Assembly: GCA_938023075.1 (NCBI GenBank)
Contig: CALHDG010000034.1
Location: 37,518-101,517, forward strand
Length of the DNA stretch: 64,000 nucleotides
DNA from: an uncultured Chitinophagales bacterium
GTDB taxonomy: Bacteria; Bacteroidota; Bacteroidia; Chitinophagales; JAHDHT01
Reading direction: 5' to 3'
Shown: positions 10,590-46,278 of the stretch, piece after piece
Layout: each line of letters begins with the position of its first letter
Numbering within the stretch: the first letter of the stretch is position 1
Translations under genes and position numbers: made by a program
Notes under the pieces: model-generated
What the model was told of the DNA's origin: nothing
The model's input: only the letters and a program-made list of their open reading frames with translations
The model's database searches: none

Positions 10590-10810
10590 AAAGCTACATA
10601 ACTAATGTAAGTAAAGCGAACATTAACCCATATTCCAAACAACAGCATTTATAAAGTCAGCATTTCATTACATGGTAGAATTTATGAAGAAGGAAAATAA
10701 ATCAATTACAAAATGGCTTTAGAGCCACGTATGGCATTGCCTAATGGCATTTTTAAAAAATTTTTGACAAGTTTATCTAAACGATAAAGTAGTTGACACT
10801 TTTGTATAGA

Positions 10811-10953
10811 TTTTTTTTTGAAGCGAAACATTTTAACTTTATAAAACATCTGTCCCGCTTTTCGCTCAAATGCTGCGGCTGCGCTTCAAAATCTAACGCT
10901 TCAGGCAGCATAACCACTGCAATCGGGGCTAGATTGGTCAATTTGCTCCTTCG
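10811..10953 (-). repeat. Interspersed hairpin element, family 1, copy B
   Basis: Reverse complement reads TAGCCCCGATTGCAGTGGTTATGCTGCCTGAAGCG...GCAGCATTTGAGCGAAAAGCGGGAC...GTTTCGCTTC-polyA. Confidence 0.8.
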
Positions 10954-34568: not shown

Positions 34569-37500
34569 TTATTCTTTTATAAATTTCTGTGAAACAATAC
34601 TATCACCTGTTTGCATACGGATAAAGTATACACCTGCAGGTAAATCAGCTACCTCAATATTTAAGGAATTGATACCACCTTGTTGATCTGTTTTCTGAAC
34701 CTGCATTAAAGAATGACCGATTAAGTCAAGTACTTCAATTTGTGTTGGCGTATTTTCACTGGCAGTATAGGTTAACTGTAAGTTATCAATTACAGGTACT
34801 GGATTCAGTGAAATGATGCCTAAAGCACTTTCACCTCTAATTATCTGTACAATGCCAACTTCAACGGTTGTGCCATCAATGTCGGTTTGCGATAAACGGT
34901 AGTAACTTAATCCGCCTAAAGCAGTTCTATGTAAGAAACTGTATTTATTATTGACTAATGAGGTACCCGCACCTTTTACAGTTGCAATGCTTTCAAAATG
35001 AGTACCATCTGTTGATACCTCAAGCGTAAAGTAATCATTATCGGTTTCTGTTGCAGTAACCCATTTTAGTAAGTTACCATCATCCTTAGCTTCACCATCA
35101 TAGCTCAATAAGGTAATCGGTAATTTTACACATTCAACTACTTCGGTAAAAGTACCCGTACATCCACCAGCATCCGAAACGTAAATTTCATAACTAGTAT
35201 CAGAAATTGGACCAAAGGTAATTGGGGTATTCGCTGAAACATTTGAACTATAATCGCCTGTAACATTATAGGTTTGGCTTGGATCAAAACCAGGCAAACC
35301 ACCAGTAATGGTAAAGGTAACCGTGTATTCTTCTGTTGAAGCATCACAAGTATAATCCGCACTAATTGCAATAGGATCTAAGAATACCAAAATAGCAGCA
35401 TTCGATAAATCACAAACTACTGGCAATTCACTTGGTACTGGCTTCTCTGGACCTACTAAAGTTTGTACCACCAATGGTGTATTGGTTGGATAGCCACTTA
35501 CATTAAAGATACCTGTTGTATTAATTTCTATGATATTGCCAAAGTTGTCGGCATCTCCATCGTGTAAAATATAAACAAATTCAAAACCTTCTGGAATTAC
35601 CGCGCCGGTAGCAGAAACACTAATTATACCACCTGCACAAGAATATAAGTTAGTTGGTAATACCCCAGCATCACAAAGTTGCGATAAAACGGTAATGATG
35701 GCTGGATCGGCATCATCCTCATCGGTTGCGGCAACGCCATCACCTTGTCCTCCAGTTCCGTCACCATCAATGTAGTCATCTGCTGGAGTACCTGGAGCAC
35801 CACCGGCATCATTACCTACTGATGAGTCAAAATTGGAATCAATATCATTAACTGGATTACCATCACCATCAGTTGCAAATTGAATTTCGGCAACGTTAAC
35901 AATATCTTTGCTGTGGAATAAATCAGGATCTACCACAAAAGTGATATCGACGGTGGCTGTTGCTCCTGGAGCAATAGGACCAGCGATAACGGTAGAGGCT
36001 TGGTTATTTGCCAATGCCATCCAATCCGGATCATCTAAAAACAGAGCACTTGGCGCATAATCAATGATACCTACATTGGTAGCCGTTACATTACCCTGGT
36101 TATAAACCGTTATGGTAAAGGTTACCTGTTCACCTGCTCCAAACGGACCTGTTTGACCCGCTGCAAGACCCTTAGTTAAGGCTAAATCAAAACCATCACC
36201 TAGTGCGCAATCTTCTAATACAGTTATTTCTTCTACATCATGATCGTCTTCTGCTTCAGCATCGTTATTAGGATCTGTATCCGGTGTGCTGTCGATATCA
36301 TTACCATCACTACTACTAATTTCAGCAATGTTTAAAACTGAACCACCCGGATGATCAGAACCAATAGTTAATAATATTGGAACATTAACAGATTCGCCTG
36401 CACCTAAAAAGGTAATAATATTCATAGCTATGATACCATTTGTAGTCCAACCATTAATATCATTTGTACTTAAGCTAAAACCTTCTGGTAAATAATCGGT
36501 AATTTCTGTATTGTATGCTGATACATTGCCTTGGTTGGTTACTGTAATAACAAACATGACATCTTCACCAGGACAGTATTCACCTGTACCAACACCTGTT
36601 CTAACTTTAGTCAATGCCAAATCATGTACTGCATCAGGATCGCATAAGTAAATGATATCTCCATCATGATCATCTTCATCAATCCCACCTTTTACGCCGT
36701 TAATATCATTATCTGTCGGAGTATTTGGCACACCGCCTGCATCGTTACCTAGAATATTATCTGCATTACTATCAAAATCATCTCCATTATCACCACTAAT
36801 TTCTGCATAGTTTTCTAAGGTTGCTCCTGTATAATCTTCATCAATAGTTAAAAATATAGTTAAGCCAACTACACCGCCATTGGCTTCAATAAATGGTATA
36901 GTAGTTATTGCCATAGAACCATTAACTAACCATATATCGTTTTGAGGATTATCACTTAATGACATACCATCTGGAATATAGTCAGTTATTTCTATATCAA
37001 TAGCTGACAAATCACCTTGATTGAATACAGCAATAGAAAACCGCACCTCATCACCTGGGCAATAAATATCCATATTGGCATTGGTTAAGTTTGGTGAAAT
37101 ATCTTTGATTAAGGCTAAATCAAATACTTCGCAAGGTTGACACGAACCATTATCGCAATTTGCAGATGCATTAAAGTTACAAGCATCAGCATCGGTACAA
37201 CCTAATACTTGTGGTGTAACTAATTCACAGCTACAACTTTCTGCACTAGGTGCGGTAATATCTCCTAAACAAGGATCGGTATTACAAGTTGGCACTGCAA
37301 TACAAGTTCCATTATCTATACAAGCTTCTGGATTGTAGTTACATGCATTCGGATCGGTACAGCCCGGTGTTGGATTACAAGGATTTGTTGGACAAGTGGT
37401 ATCTCCGAAATCACAAGTTCCATTATCTACACAAGCATTGGGATCATAATTACAAGCAGCAGGATCGGTACAACCTGGTGCAGGATTACAAGGATCGGCG

Positions 37501-40500
37501 CAAGCCTGATTACCAAAATCACAGGTTCCATTATCTTCACAGGCATTGGGATCAAAGTTACAAGCATTAGGATTATTACAACCTGGTACTGGATTACAAG
37601 GATCGGCACAAGTTAAATTACCTAATTCGCAAGTACCATTGTCTACGCAAGCATTTGGATCGTAGTTACAAGCATTAGGATTAATACAACCTGGTGTTGG
37701 ATTACAAGGATTACTAGTACAAGTTAGATCGCCAAAATCACAAGAATCATTATCTTCACATGCATTCGGATCGAAATTGCAAGCTGCCGGATCAGTACAT
37801 CCAGGAACTGGATTACAAGGATCGGCACATGCTGAATTTCCATATTCACATAAGCTATTGTCTTCACAATTGGCATTGGTATCGAAATTACAGGCATTCA
37901 TATCCATACATCCTAATACAGTTGGTAAAGAAATAATGCAACTGCATTCGGTTGGACTCCACACCTCAAGGTCTCCAAGTGTACAATCGGTATTACAATC
38001 AGTATTATATGGCTCACAAGAACCATCATTTACTTCCGCTGTAGCATCATAATTTGGTGCACAAGGATCGGTACAACCCATAGCAATAGAAGTCATTACT
38101 TCTATTTGAGCCGGATCATGATCATCTTCGTCGGTTCCACCTTTGGTACCATCGGTACTGTCATCAGTAGATGAGTTTGGAATACCACCGGCGTCATTAC
38201 CTACATCTTGATCTGTATTACTATCTACATCTTCACCATCATCTCCACTAATTTCTGCATAATTTACAATAGTTCCATCTGGTTGTCCAGCATCTATACT
38301 TAACACAATATTTACTGATGCGTTTCCACCTGCAGGAATACTTGCTATGTTAACCGTAACTAAAGAACCATTCACTATCCAACCATTGTTATCGTTTACA
38401 CTTAAACTTAAACTAGCTGGTATATAATCGGTAATTTCAACATTACTGGCATCAACATCACCTTGATTAAATACTTGAATGGTAAAAACAACATCGCTGC
38501 CTGGCGCATAAGGCTGAGCATTGTATACTGTTTTAATTAAAGCTAAATCGTAAATGGCAGGAACGGTAACATCAATTTGAGCCGGATCGTGATCATCTTC
38601 ATCTGTACCACCTTTTGTACCATCTGTACTGTTATCTGTGGAAGAGTTGGGCAGGCCACCAGCATCGTTACTCACATCCTGGTCTGTATTACTATCGGCA
38701 TCATCACCATCATCGGCACTAATCTCGGCATAGTTCACTAATGAACCTGCGCTTTGAGTAGTATCAATAGTTAATATTATATCTAAAGTAGCACTTGCTC
38801 CGGCAGCAACACTAGCGATGGTAGCCGTAGCATTTGAACCACTTACAACCCAACCATTATTATCGGCTGTGCTTAAGCTCATACCACCTGGTATGTAATC
38901 TGTAATTTCTATATTATTGGCATCAACACCACCTTGATTAATTACCTCAATGGTGAAGGTAACATCATCGCCTGGCATAAACGGACCAGTTGAAGCTACT
39001 GTTTTAACTAAGGCTAAATCGTAAACGGCAGGTATGGTTACATCAATTAAAGCCGGATCGTGATCATCTTCATCAATGCCTCCTGCTATTCCATTTCCAT
39101 TAATACTATTGTCTGTAGAAGAATTTGGTTCACCGCCCACATCGTTACCAATATCTTGATCAGTTATACTATCTATATCATCTCCATCATCGGCACTAAT
39201 TTCTGCATAATTCACAAGTGAACCTTCACCTTGACTAGCATCTATAGTTAATAAGATACTTAAGATTGCTGTTGAACCAGCTGGTATTGATGAAACTGTT
39301 GTAGTAGCATTAGAGCCACTTGCAATCCAACCATTGTTATCATTTGCACTTAAGGTCATTCCTGCTGGAATATAATCTGTAATTTCAACATTATTAGCAT
39401 CTGTATTTCCTTGATTTACCACTTGAATAGTAAATAAAACATCGCTACCAGGTGTATATGGACCTGGAGAGGCTACCGTTTTGGTTAAAGCTAAATCATA
39501 AATACCGCAATCAGCAGTACCAGTTACAGCATCATCTAATGAACAACCTTTACCATCTTCTACTACATTAAATGAATAGGTGTAATTAGAATCAAAAGGT
39601 CCGAGAACCAACGTTTCGTCAGTTTCTACTTCACCTTCAAAGTCTCCACTTAGTGTATATGCATGTCCAACAAAAAACTCAGGACCACCACCTGAAATAT
39701 TTACCTCTACTGTATATTGACCGGTTTGGTCATCACAAATTTCTGTTGTTTCAACATTTATAGGATCTAAAAATACAACTTGAAAACAATTGGATATATC
39801 AAAACATCCACCCGAACCAGAATCTAAAGGAATACCTTCAGGACTAACATCATCACCTACAATGGCTGTAATACAAAGTGTTACATTAGTAGGGATGGTG
39901 CCATCACTCATAAACACTCCATCTAAAGAGGTTTGATAAATATTGTCGCCAATTGCATCGCTTGAGCCATCGTGCAATAAATATGCTAATGCTCCATCAT
40001 TTGGAAGCTCTGAATTTAATGTATTAGCCACTACAAATTCTCCCTCACACACAAATGCGTTGCCGCCAAGTATGCCAGCGTCACAATCTGGAGTAATTTC
40101 ACAAGTAGTTGAACCTTCGAACGAAACATTACAACCTTTACCATCATCTGTAATATCAAATGAATAAGTATCGCCTGAATCAAAAGGACCAAAAGTGTAG
40201 AATTGAGAAGCTAAAATTTCACCAGAAAGATTACCAGTGACAGTATATGAATGTCCGTCAAAGAAATCAGGACCACCGCCATTTATCATAACTTGAACAT
40301 TGAATTGTCCAGTTTGAGGATCACATATTTCACTTGCACTTATTGTAATAGTTTCAAGAAAGACAACTTCTTGGCATTCATCGGATATATCATAACACCC
40401 AGTTGTTAAAGGTAATCCGCTTGCATCTAACTGGTCACCAACTACTGCTGAAAAACATAATGATTCATTTGTGGGGAAAGAACCATCATTAAGTATAGGA

Positions 40501-41339
40501 TCTCCAGGTCCAACAATGGCGTAAACATTAGGTCCAATTTCATCACTACCACCATCGTGAATTACATACACAAGTGTACTTCCATCGTCTACAGTTGCAC
40601 CATTATCTATTGGTGAAACTAAGAAATCACCAATTCCACATAAAAATGTACTACCGCCCATATTGCCAGCGAAATTTCCACAAGGATCTGAACAATTATA
40701 ATCATATTCGATAAAACCATCTAAGGATCCAGGACAGGGAATAAAGCCTATTTTATCGATGTAAGTATATTCTACCCTCCAAGTTCCTGATTCACCAGGA
40801 TTTGCTGTATAACTGTCGGGTTCTACAATATCAACAAAAACTAATCCATCTGGGTCAGTACAAGCTTCCGATAAACCAACAGAGACGGAACAATCATCAC
40901 CCTCAACGGTAATAAATTCTTCGATGTTGGAAGGATATACTGTAATGTCTTCGGTTTGCAGGGCTGATGTTGAACCGTCATCTTCACATAATAAGCGAAT
41001 TAAAAAAGATTGCGTTTCTGGATAACAGCCTTGGTTATCCAATGTAAGTGAGCCGGTGTAAAGCCCGCTGGGATTCGGGCCAGTTAAAGTGGGGATTAAC
41101 ACATTTCCAGAACCTAACTCTACTGTTAGATTTCCGTTTTGTGCATCCGCCGGATTAAGTATAGCCGTAAACGTTACCTGATCGCCTGAACAAGCAACAT
41201 TTGTTGTGGCTGACGTATTAAACAATGTAGGACATTGCGCGTAGGACTGTGTAATAAAAAAAGTAAATAGCAATATAAAGGCGAAACCCTTATATCTTGT
41301 TGTTAAGTTATGTTTCATATTATGATAATTTCTAAACAT
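34569..41339 (-). CDS. Giant T9SS-secreted protein with DUF11-type repeats and Cys-rich repeats
   Basis: Signal peptide; about six DLALxKT...VxFTIxVxNQGxxxAxNVEITDYxP units; about seven PGCTDPxACNxDPNACxDNGTC units; C-terminal T9SS type A-like domain ending VYFIRMQTGDSIVSQKFIKE. Confidence 0.85.
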   Translation of the reverse strand: MFRNYHNMKHNLTTRYKGFAFILLFTFFITQSYAQCPTLFNTSATTNVACSGDQVTFTAILNPADAQNGNLTVELGSGNVLIPTLTGPNPSGLYTGSLTLDNQGCYPETQSFLIRLLCEDDGSTSALQTEDITVYPSNIEEFITVEGDDCSVSVGLSEACTDPDGLVFVDIVEPDSYTANPGESGTWRVEYTYIDKIGFIPCPGSLDGFIEYDYNCSDPCGNFAGNMGGSTFLCGIGDFLVSPIDNGATVDDGSTLVYVIHDGGSDEIGPNVYAIVGPGDPILNDGSFPTNESLCFSAVVGDQLDASGLPLTTGCYDISDECQEVVFLETITISASEICDPQTGQFNVQVMINGGGPDFFDGHSYTVTGNLSGEILASQFYTFGPFDSGDTYSFDITDDGKGCNVSFEGSTTCEITPDCDAGILGGNAFVCEGEFVVANTLNSELPNDGALAYLLHDGSSDAIGDNIYQTSLDGVFMSDGTIPTNVTLCITAIVGDDVSPEGIPLDSGSGGCFDISNCFQVVFLDPINVETTEICDDQTGQYTVEVNISGGGPEFFVGHAYTLSGDFEGEVETDETLVLGPFDSNYTYSFNVVEDGKGCSLDDAVTGTADCGIYDLALTKTVASPGPYTPGSDVLFTIQVVNQGNTDANNVEITDYIPAGMTLSANDNNGWIASGSNATTTVSSIPAGSTAILSILLTIDASQGEGSLVNYAEISADDGDDIDSITDQDIGNDVGGEPNSSTDNSINGNGIAGGIDEDDHDPALIDVTIPAVYDLALVKTVASTGPFMPGDDVTFTIEVINQGGVDANNIEITDYIPGGMSLSTADNNGWVVSGSNATATIASVAAGASATLDIILTIDTTQSAGSLVNYAEISADDGDDADSNTDQDVSNDAGGLPNSSTDNSTDGTKGGTDEDDHDPAQIDVTVPAIYDLALIKTVYNAQPYAPGSDVVFTIQVFNQGDVDASNVEITDYIPASLSLSVNDNNGWIVNGSLVTVNIASIPAGGNASVNIVLSIDAGQPDGTIVNYAEISGDDGEDVDSNTDQDVGNDAGGIPNSSTDDSTDGTKGGTDEDDHDPAQIEVMTSIAMGCTDPCAPNYDATAEVNDGSCEPYNTDCNTDCTLGDLEVWSPTECSCIISLPTVLGCMDMNACNFDTNANCEDNSLCEYGNSACADPCNPVPGCTDPAACNFDPNACEDNDSCDFGDLTCTSNPCNPTPGCINPNACNYDPNACVDNGTCELGNLTCADPCNPVPGCNNPNACNFDPNACEDNGTCDFGNQACADPCNPAPGCTDPAACNYDPNACVDNGTCDFGDTTCPTNPCNPTPGCTDPNACNYNPEACIDNGTCIAVPTCNTDPCLGDITAPSAESCSCELVTPQVLGCTDADACNFNASANCDNGSCQPCEVFDLALIKDISPNLTNANMDIYCPGDEVRFSIAVFNQGDLSAIDIEITDYIPDGMSLSDNPQNDIWLVNGSMAITTIPFIEANGGVVGLTIFLTIDEDYTGATLENYAEISGDNGDDFDSNADNILGNDAGGVPNTPTDNDINGVKGGIDEDDHDGDIIYLCDPDAVHDLALTKVRTGVGTGEYCPGEDVMFVITVTNQGNVSAYNTEITDYLPEGFSLSTNDINGWTTNGIIAMNIITFLGAGESVNVPILLTIGSDHPGGSVLNIAEISSSDGNDIDSTPDTDPNNDAEAEDDHDVEEITVLEDCALGDGFDLALTKGLAAGQTGPFGAGEQVTFTITVYNQGNVTATNVGIIDYAPSALFLDDPDWMALANNQASTVIAGPIAPGATATVDITFVVDPDLFHSKDIVNVAEIQFATDGDGNPVNDIDSNFDSSVGNDAGGAPGTPADDYIDGDGTGGQGDGVAATDEDDADPAIITVLSQLCDAGVLPTNLYSCAGGIISVSATGAVIPEGFEFVYILHDGDADNFGNIIEINTTGIFNVSGYPTNTPLVVQTLVGPEKPVPSELPVVCDLSNAAILVFLDPIAISADYTCDASTEEYTVTFTITGGLPGFDPSQTYNVTGDYSSNVSANTPITFGPISDTSYEIYVSDAGGCTGTFTEVVECVKLPITLLSYDGEAKDDGNLLKWVTATETDNDYFTLEVSTDGTHFESIATVKGAGTSLVNNKYSFLHRTALGGLSYYRLSQTDIDGTTVEVGIVQIIRGESALGIISLNPVPVIDNLQLTYTASENTPTQIEVLDLIGHSLMQVQKTDQQGGINSLNIEVADLPAGVYFIRMQTGDSIVSQKFIKE
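37140..37920 (-). repeat. Tandem ~105-nt coding repeats (Cys-rich units)
   Basis: Seven imperfect units of ~35 aa read from the translation. Confidence 0.8.
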
Positions 41340-42510: not shown

Positions 42511-42837
42511 TTATTCTCCACCAGTCGGATCATAATTATTAACATCAAAATCTTTAATCGACTCGTTGAGCTCAGTATTATTTTCAGAACCGGTTAAACT
42601 GCTACTTCTGTTGGGTATTACAGTAACAGATAAGAGGCTAAAAACCAATAGCGCTATAATTAAGCCCCAAGTCGTTTTCTCTAAAAAATCGGCGGCATTT
42701 TTTGCTCCACCAAGATTATTACTAGATACGCCTCCAAAAGTACCACCAAGTCCGCCGCCTTTAGGGTCTTGCACTAAAACAACTAATAATATTAATAAAC
42801 AAATTAGTATGATAATTACCGTTATAATAGAATACAT
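42511..42837 (-). CDS. secG: Preprotein translocase subunit SecG
   Basis: LLVVLVQDPKGGGLGGTFGG...LGGAKNAADFLEKTTWGLI. Confidence 0.92.
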   Translation of the reverse strand: MYSIITVIIILICLLILLVVLVQDPKGGGLGGTFGGVSSNNLGGAKNAADFLEKTTWGLIIALLVFSLLSVTVIPNRSSSLTGSENNTELNESIKDFDVNNYDPTGGE

Positions 42838-42840
42838 GTG

Positions 42841-43171
42841 TTAAAAATTTTGCTTCAATTCTTTAATTCGCTCGGCAAAGTAAACGTTTTTTTCGGGATA
42901 TTTCAAAGATAATTTATTGTATATCTTAATCGATTTTAAAAAGTAGCCTTGATATTCGTAAATTCGGGCAAGGGTTTCTGATACAATCTCGTGATCCTCA
43001 TCTAAACTTCTGGCAGCAATTTCTTTAACAGAAAAACCGGGTATAAAGCGAAGCGTAGTTTCTTTTGGTTTTTCTGTAGTGCCAAGAAATTGGTGTATAT
43101 CATTAATGTTATCTACATCTGCTTTTACTAAATTGGGGGTGGGTTGATTAAATCGTTGGCTAATAGATTTT
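42841..43171 (-). pseudogene. Out-of-frame conserved C-terminal TPR-like tail of the 43128-44342 protein
   Basis: Hand translation SISQRFNQPTPNLVKADVDNINDIHQFLGTTEKPKETTLRFIPGFSVKEIAARSLDEDHEIVSETLARIYEYQGYFLKSIKIYNKLSLKYPEKNVYFAERIKELKQNF*, in the -1 frame after an A10 tract. Confidence 0.7.
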
Positions 43172-44342
43172 TTTTTTCATCCTTTGTATTACTTGTGCGA
43201 TTCATTTTGGCTAACCAATCTCTAAACGATTCGCGCGCTTGTTCTGTTATATTATCATTATCTTGATTGATCATTGAGGCATTCGCAGTCATTCCTATGC
43301 CACGTTTCAAATTTTTATGTGCTTCAACCTTAGCTTTTAAACGGCTTATTTCATTGTCTTCAACAATATTTTCCTCTAAATTTTGGTCCGTTAATAATTC
43401 TTGTTCTTTCAATTTAGATTTTGCTTGTTGAACCCATTCATCTCTTTCAATTCTATCGGGGAAATAATCAATTATTTCTGTCAATGTTTCAATATCAGTT
43501 TTTTCTAACAAAGCCAATTGCTGAAAACTCAATATCCCTGCTTCATGCAGCTTAGATTCTAATATGGAACCAATACCACTTATTTTTTGTAAGTCATTCT
43601 TATCTTTGTTTAAGGCTAATCCAATTTTTTCTATTAATAAACGGCGGTACTTGTTCTCAAATAAAACTGTACATTCTTCTGTCCATCCACCTACTCGATC
43701 TTCGGATATACCTGTTAGTTTAGCAAGTAGGTTAATTTCTTCTTGTTCATCTAATTTTTTTAACTGACTATACGTATATAAGCCTGCACTATTTAAAAGT
43801 ACTTGTTCATCAGATTGTATGAAAGAAATCAAGGTCAAATCATCTGCCTCATTAGAATTGGCTAAGCCGGCTTTTTTTAATAAATAGGCAATATCTTCTT
43901 CTACTATTTCTTCGGGTACTTTTAAGGATTTAGCTTGTTTTTCTGGCTCTTCAAAAACAGCATTTTTCAAGTCGTTATTTTTAGTAGCCTTAAACGATTC
44001 ATCATCAAAAGGTAAATGACTTTCTTCTTCTTCTAATTGCTCAAATTCATCATCGTTATCATCATGGTCATTTTCAATTTCATTGTTGTCATAACTTTCT
44101 TCTTCTAAAAATTCTAAGCCATCTTCTTCTTTTTTGTTATCTAAGATATTTCCTTTATCGCTATTTTCATTTGGCTTTGATGAATTTATAGATTCTTTTT
44201 TTGAATGAAGCAACACTTGTAGTTTAATAAAATAAGGATATTTATCAACCAATTCCTCCAATTGTTCAATACTTACTTTGTTGAGTTGACCGGGTTCTGA
44301 TAAAAGTTTGATGACCGCTTCTTTTTCCATACTCCTTACCAA
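43128..44342 (-). CDS. HHH-module/TPR-type protein upstream of secG, apparently shortened by a frameshift at A10
   Basis: N-terminus IEQLEELVDKYPYFIKLQVLLH; HHH module LQKISGIGSILESKLHEAGILSFQQLALLEKTDIETLTEIIDYFPDRIERDEW. Confidence 0.7.
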   Translation of the reverse strand: MVRSMEKEAVIKLLSEPGQLNKVSIEQLEELVDKYPYFIKLQVLLHSKKESINSSKPNENSDKGNILDNKKEEDGLEFLEEESYDNNEIENDHDDNDDEFEQLEEEESHLPFDDESFKATKNNDLKNAVFEEPEKQAKSLKVPEEIVEEDIAYLLKKAGLANSNEADDLTLISFIQSDEQVLLNSAGLYTYSQLKKLDEQEEINLLAKLTGISEDRVGGWTEECTVLFENKYRRLLIEKIGLALNKDKNDLQKISGIGSILESKLHEAGILSFQQLALLEKTDIETLTEIIDYFPDRIERDEWVQQAKSKLKEQELLTDQNLEENIVEDNEISRLKAKVEAHKNLKRGIGMTANASMINQDNDNITEQARESFRDWLAKMNRTSNTKDEKKNLLANDLINPPPI

Positions 44343-44839
44343 TTAACCAATGCTTTATTAAATATTTTATCGATGAGGCGTTCATTAATCTCTTCCACCA
44401 ATCCGGCTTCGGCTTCAATAAAATTTATCGACATATCAAAGCGCGCAAAATCAGAAAATTGGCTTTCAAAGCTTTTATCTGGCTCAATTTCGTTGGTGAA
44501 GGTTACTTTGATATCAATAACCAATTCGCTTTCAGATGCCATGCTTGCCGAGGTGTTCGCAACCGGACGAACTGAATAACGGGTTACTTCTCCGGTAAAC
44601 TTAATATCGCCATCTAAAGCAACCGGCGATAAATTAATAGAAGAACTTATCCGGTCAACTAAAGCCTCTGTTAGCAATTGCCTTAAATTAGGGTTTTCTA
44701 ATAGATTATCTTCAAAAGTTTGCACACTAAAAGTCTTTACCTCAGGAGAAACCGACGCACCCGTAAAAGAATAAATTCCGCAACTTGAAAGCAACAACAT
44801 TAAAACGAAGGTAAGTATGTTTGTTAACAATTTATCCAC
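44336..44839 (-). CDS. lptE: LptE-family LPS assembly lipoprotein
   Basis: Lipobox LLLSSCGIYSFTGASVSPEVKTFSVQTFEDNL..NPNLRQLLTEALVDRI; neighbourhood. Confidence 0.8.
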   Translation of the reverse strand: MDKLLTNILTFVLMLLLSSCGIYSFTGASVSPEVKTFSVQTFEDNLLENPNLRQLLTEALVDRISSSINLSPVALDGDIKFTGEVTRYSVRPVANTSASMASESELVIDIKVTFTNEIEPDKSFESQFSDFARFDMSINFIEAEAGLVEEINERLIDKIFNKALVNW

Positions 44840-46132: not shown

Positions 46133-46150
46133 TAATTAATAAATTTGTAA

Positions 46151-46278
46151 TTTTTTTTTGAAGCGAAACAGCATTACTCGCAATAAGGGCAGTCCCGCTT
46201 TCCGCTCAAATGTTGCTCCACTTCGTTCCACAACATAACCGCTGCAATCGGGGCTAGTTTGCTAACTTCGCTTCTTCG
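46151..46278 (-). repeat. Interspersed hairpin element, family 1, copy D
   Basis: Reverse complement ACTAGCCCCGATTGCAGCGGTTATGTTGTGG...GAGCAACATTTGAGCGGAAAGCGGGACTGCCC...GTTTCGCTTC-polyA. Confidence 0.8.

Follow-up and report, generated by a model that had tools for sequence, protein, structure and literature searches.

Organization of the locus

What does it mean when the conserved tail of a protein lies in another frame than the rest of its gene, behind a run of ten A residues: is the frameshift programmed, or is the frame simply off by one accidental base? This question is raised by a locus in the stretch of 64,000 nucleotides that we analysed (hereafter, the window), which belongs to an uncultured Chitinophagales bacterium (assembly GCA_938023075.1). 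The frame breaks at an A10 homopolymer located at positions 43168-43177 of the window, on the minus strand, where the coding strand reads, in the 0 frame, GAT GAA AAA AAA AAT CTA. The locus is organized as follows:

44336..44839, minus strand: lptE, the neighbour upstream of the broken gene
43128..44330, minus strand: upstream ORF (0 frame), 400 aa from ATG
42841..43176, minus strand: predicted TPR-like C-terminal tail (-1 frame), 111 codons followed by a TAA (42841-42843)
42511..42837, minus strand: secG, beginning 3 nt past the tail stop and 290 nt past the 0-frame stop

In the 0 frame, translation stops at a TAG (43128-43130), and the last 13 residues (NLLANDLINPPPI), which lie beyond the A10, are in an unnatural frame. 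The preliminary description had placed the start of this ORF at a TTG (44342); the ORF itself, the A10 and the 0-frame stop stand as described, but the true N-terminal start is probably the ATG at 44330, right after the lptE stop. We confirmed that a -1 shift at the A10 opens the tail down to 42841, as had been proposed. In this -1 frame, a TGA (43177-43179) is found immediately 5' of the A10, and none of the first 90 tail codons is an ATG, GTG or TTG. Hence, the expression of the tail needs a change of frame at the A10.

The window has a GC content of 35%, and the A10 sits in a lysine-rich linker; among the A/T runs of at least 8 nucleotides found in the window, it is the only one that breaks a gene. 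The window also carries, at 34569-41339 on the minus strand, a gene for a secreted-looking protein of 2256 aa, whose internal repeats measure about 470 nt and about 110 nt.

Identity of the gene and of its tail

The N-terminal part of the protein presents a Pfam match to the helix-hairpin-helix family HHH_5 (PF14520; E 1.1e-7, residues 246-286) and a sub-threshold match to DUF4332, and the flanking genes are identified in the same way as LptE (PF04390) and SecG (PF03840). A conserved F..WL motif, here SFRDWL, is found in the 0 frame shortly before the A10. The tail alone has no match in Pfam or NCBIfam. On the other hand, a profile built from 13 tail sequences matches consensus TPR proteins (8bu0 at E 6e-16), and in the structural model the C-terminal helices are well predicted (block pLDDT 94-98) and superpose on single TPRs with an rmsd of 1.4-1.7 over 46-50 residues. 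The Foldseek E-values obtained with this model are all above 0.5, so that by fold alone the TPR likeness is weak. Taken together, the profile match and the helical-hairpin model support the prediction of a TPR-like tail, and the term used in the preliminary description holds in this sense.

A single gene in relatives

We searched the order with the joined tail and found it in 288 of 299 genomes (E<=1e-3), which is far beyond chance, and nearly all of the tail matches listed lie in an open frame of more than 200 aa. The open frame of G004 is given as 54 aa in this search but reaches 273 codons once the DNA is read. The genome studied here (G000) has a single copy of the tail, i.e., the broken one. 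In all 30 relatives whose locus was read from the DNA (L028-L056, L094), the tail and the upstream part share one frame, of 256-589 codons, and lptE and secG adjoin the gene in most of them. This bears out the view, already put forward for this locus, of an ancestral gene in one piece, located before secG and ending in a conserved tail. In most of the relatives read, the F..WL motif is located 51-127 residues before the SETLA of the tail. In G000, SFRDWL is found at -83 from SETLA, the former in the 0 frame, upstream of the A10, and the latter in the -1 frame; both sides of the break thus correspond to one ancestral protein.

The A10 is positioned in the variable, poorly conserved linker between the F..WL motif and the tail. 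Some relatives have in-frame A7-A9 runs at this linker, and the longest A run among the 30 relatives is nine nucleotides, in frame. On the 55-column core of the tail, 23 of the 25 conserved positions agree in G000 (92%), and the intact relatives score between 75 and 100% on the same core. The tail is thus undecayed, so the break is recent, tolerated or compensated, or artificial. Only one other genome of the same family is available; it is 83% complete and lacks both the tail and secG, which probably reflects an assembly gap. A contig search for close relatives returned only distant HhH matches.

These data also bear on the idea of a gene loss under way or of a gene split, in which the tail would be a pseudogene or a separate gene. 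The stop encountered 13 residues past the A10 would fit such a process, but the conserved tail positions are intact, the 111 codons of the tail are free of stops, and a separate gene would be left without a usable start codon; we consider this reading highly improbable.

The proposed programmed ribosomal frameshift

One of the possibilities raised by the preliminary description is a -1 ribosomal frameshift programmed at the heptamer A_AAA_AAA. This heptamer is indeed present in the phase that was claimed, but the phase is uninformative: the four heptamers contained in an A10 cover all three phases, and every A run of at least nine necessarily contains one in phase. The RNA downstream of the site is no more structured than shuffled sequences (z = 0.44; 124 of 200 shuffles fold equally well), so that no stimulatory structure is seen there. 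An AGGA is found about 3 nt from the heptamer, whereas the typical spacing for -1 sites is 10-14 nt. None of the 30 relatives uses the heptamer. A conserved frame break at the same site, as expected for a programmed frameshift gene, is not observed: the 30 relatives are single-framed with no A run longer than nine, which is what the preliminary description had named as a refutation. The programmed half of the earlier proposal is thus not supported, a ribosomal frameshift of this kind being extremely improbable here.

The dnaX gene resembles our case in that a poly-A is the site of the frame change (A9 in Thermus; A10 clusters in PMC3711429), but different genera share the dnaX site, while the A10 described here is without conservation.

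Possible transcriptional slippage and phase variation

Another way to restore the frame is through the RNA polymerase, which may add an A at the A10 in some transcripts, the tailed and tail-less forms of the protein both being used. The site has one of the features of productive transcriptional slippage, an A/T run of at least nine nucleotides at the frame junction; an A10 is long enough for slippage, as known in enterobacteria, and the direction fits, since an added A restores the tail frame. Slippage has been reported at A10 in Shigella spa13 and Buchnera mur genes and at A11 in lacZ (PMC6260861), and reaches 20-25% at the A11 of Citrobacter rodentium tssM (PMC4256274). Slippage at our A10 is hence physically plausible and would go in the right direction. 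The intact tail (23 of 25 positions), devoid of a separate start, is also in keeping with a maintained use of both forms. Against it, the frame break is not conserved (none in 30 relatives), the polymerase of E. coli is less prone to slip on A runs than on T runs (PMC6260861), and nothing marks the A10 as selected in its lysine-rich linker and AT-rich window. Overall, we consider that a maintained slippage is unlikely. If the indel is real, a partial rescue by slippage is likely, but rescue is not programming.

The closest likeness is with C. rodentium tssM1 (PMC4256274), where a conserved C-terminal domain is also found in the other frame behind a poly-A, without a downstream stimulator, and where an added A restores the frame. 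The tract of tssM1 is, in contrast, an A11, and its case was established by DNA re-sequencing, mass spectrometry of RT-PCR products and the function of both forms, whereas our A10 is known from the sequence of one assembly. Blochmannia and Buchnera offer a second likeness, i.e., otherwise intact genes with one poly-A indel and no decay (Tamas 2008 and Wernegreen 2010, as cited in PMC3017870), and the single poly-A indels of Blochmannia are treated as possibly corrected by slippage. These are reduced, very AT-rich symbiont genomes in which some breaks are common to species, in contrast to the 6.1 Mb genome studied here, where the break is found once.

Homopolymers can also act at the DNA level, by phase variation, in which some cells would carry A10 and others A11, with the tail switched off or on accordingly. 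The tract does lie inside a gene, and poly-A tracts are capable of such variation, as for Mycoplasma p78 (according to a citation in PMC3711429). Such a regime would be surprising for an order-wide gene between lptE and secG with no sign of a surface antigen, and no relative has a tract of at least ten at this site; we regard it as very unlikely.

Long homopolymers in this genome

We then considered how such runs behave elsewhere in the genome, in a census that rests on fetched pieces of it. These pieces contain 61 distinct A runs of at least ten; most of them do not lie in genes, and a dispersed repeat contains many of them. We counted 36 distinct copies of this intergenic repeat, GCATTTGAGCGGAAAGCGGGAC-N~24-GTTTCGCTTC-A(3-14), in the same pieces, three of them in the window (including 10810-10876 and 46150-46216), and its GTTTCGCTTC-A(n) end accounts for many of the long A runs of the genome.

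Inside genes, three A10 (L123, L111, L131) and three T10 (L078, L103, L106) stay in frame. We also sampled 63 A9/T9 runs, of which about 24-26 are covered by a spanning frame, with no convincing break; this test is a mechanical stop-to-stop one and some of the in-frame counts may not be genes. The in-gene A9/T9 runs and the six A10/T10 runs in frame imply that runs of this kind are not a general weakness of the assembly, and a single assembly error at our A10 is possible. Breaks appear only at runs of at least ten, in the gene described here, probably in L067 and perhaps in L128, and the difference between these runs and those of nine is not significant (Fisher test, p = 0.06-0.23).

L067 carries an A12 (1501-1512; G000:C13:4033-4044) in a barrel-like protein, with a 93-codon frame continuing in -1. 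It has no homologue in 59 other genomes of the order, and its A12 is possibly a second homopolymer -1 break. In L128 (1507-1516; G000:C219), an A10 lies between a frame with an EAD11 domain and a second frame that starts with an ATG and shows weak HEAT similarity; it is perhaps an overlap of two genes, or a break. Two other candidates were rejected: L086 (histidine kinase/response regulator) corresponds to two overlapping genes, and the A10 of L131 stays in frame.

A probable one-base slip

The gene is single in relatives, it is broken at the A10 in G000, and its tail is not decayed; the cause of the break and any rescue by slippage are what we infer. Most likely, there is one gene here for the HhH protein and its TPR-like tail, between lptE and secG, with a frame that is off by one base at the A10 in a non-programmed way. 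The break is found in one genome only, at a homopolymer, with intact orthologues, and by the rule of PMC3711429 a shift seen in one genome and absent from the family most likely reflects an indel or an error of sequencing; in that work, single (i.e., unclustered) frameshifted genes are also held to be likely indels or sequencing errors. Longer repeats are, in addition, more often sites where indels form and are bypassed (PMC3812077). The most likely origin of the break is thus an ordinary one-base homopolymer slip, either a real indel or a sequencing or assembly error, and the "sequence error" of the preliminary description has to be widened to include a genuine indel. One A may have been lost by replication slippage in the cell, or the error may have arisen during library preparation or assembly. 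In the case of a real indel, the main product would end past the F..WL motif, and RNA polymerase slippage at the A10 would probably give a minority of full-length protein. Against a one-base slip, the six other in-gene A10/T10 runs of this genome are in frame, and the tail shows none of the decay that a long-standing loss would have brought about.

Consequences for annotation and possible consequences for SecG

It would be misleading to annotate the gene as truncated or in two pieces. More generally, in any AT-rich genome a lysine-rich linker that contains a long A run will look convincingly like a "programmed" site, and with nine or more A residues the phase says nothing.

Of the 25 relatives whose secG was located by script, 21 have the tail stop and the secG start -1 to 10 nt apart, and in G000 the distance is 3 nt (42837-42843). 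This conserved stop-start contact suggests a translational coupling of the tail gene and secG. That the A10 would be maintained in the lineage as a slippage site, setting how much of the protein is made without and with the tail and, because the tail stop abuts the secG start, the level of secG translation, like a coupling switch, is in our view very improbable. Translation of the broken frame stops 290 nt short of secG, and a real break could then lower SecG synthesis. If the break is real, this lowered supply of SecG would be its main biological consequence.
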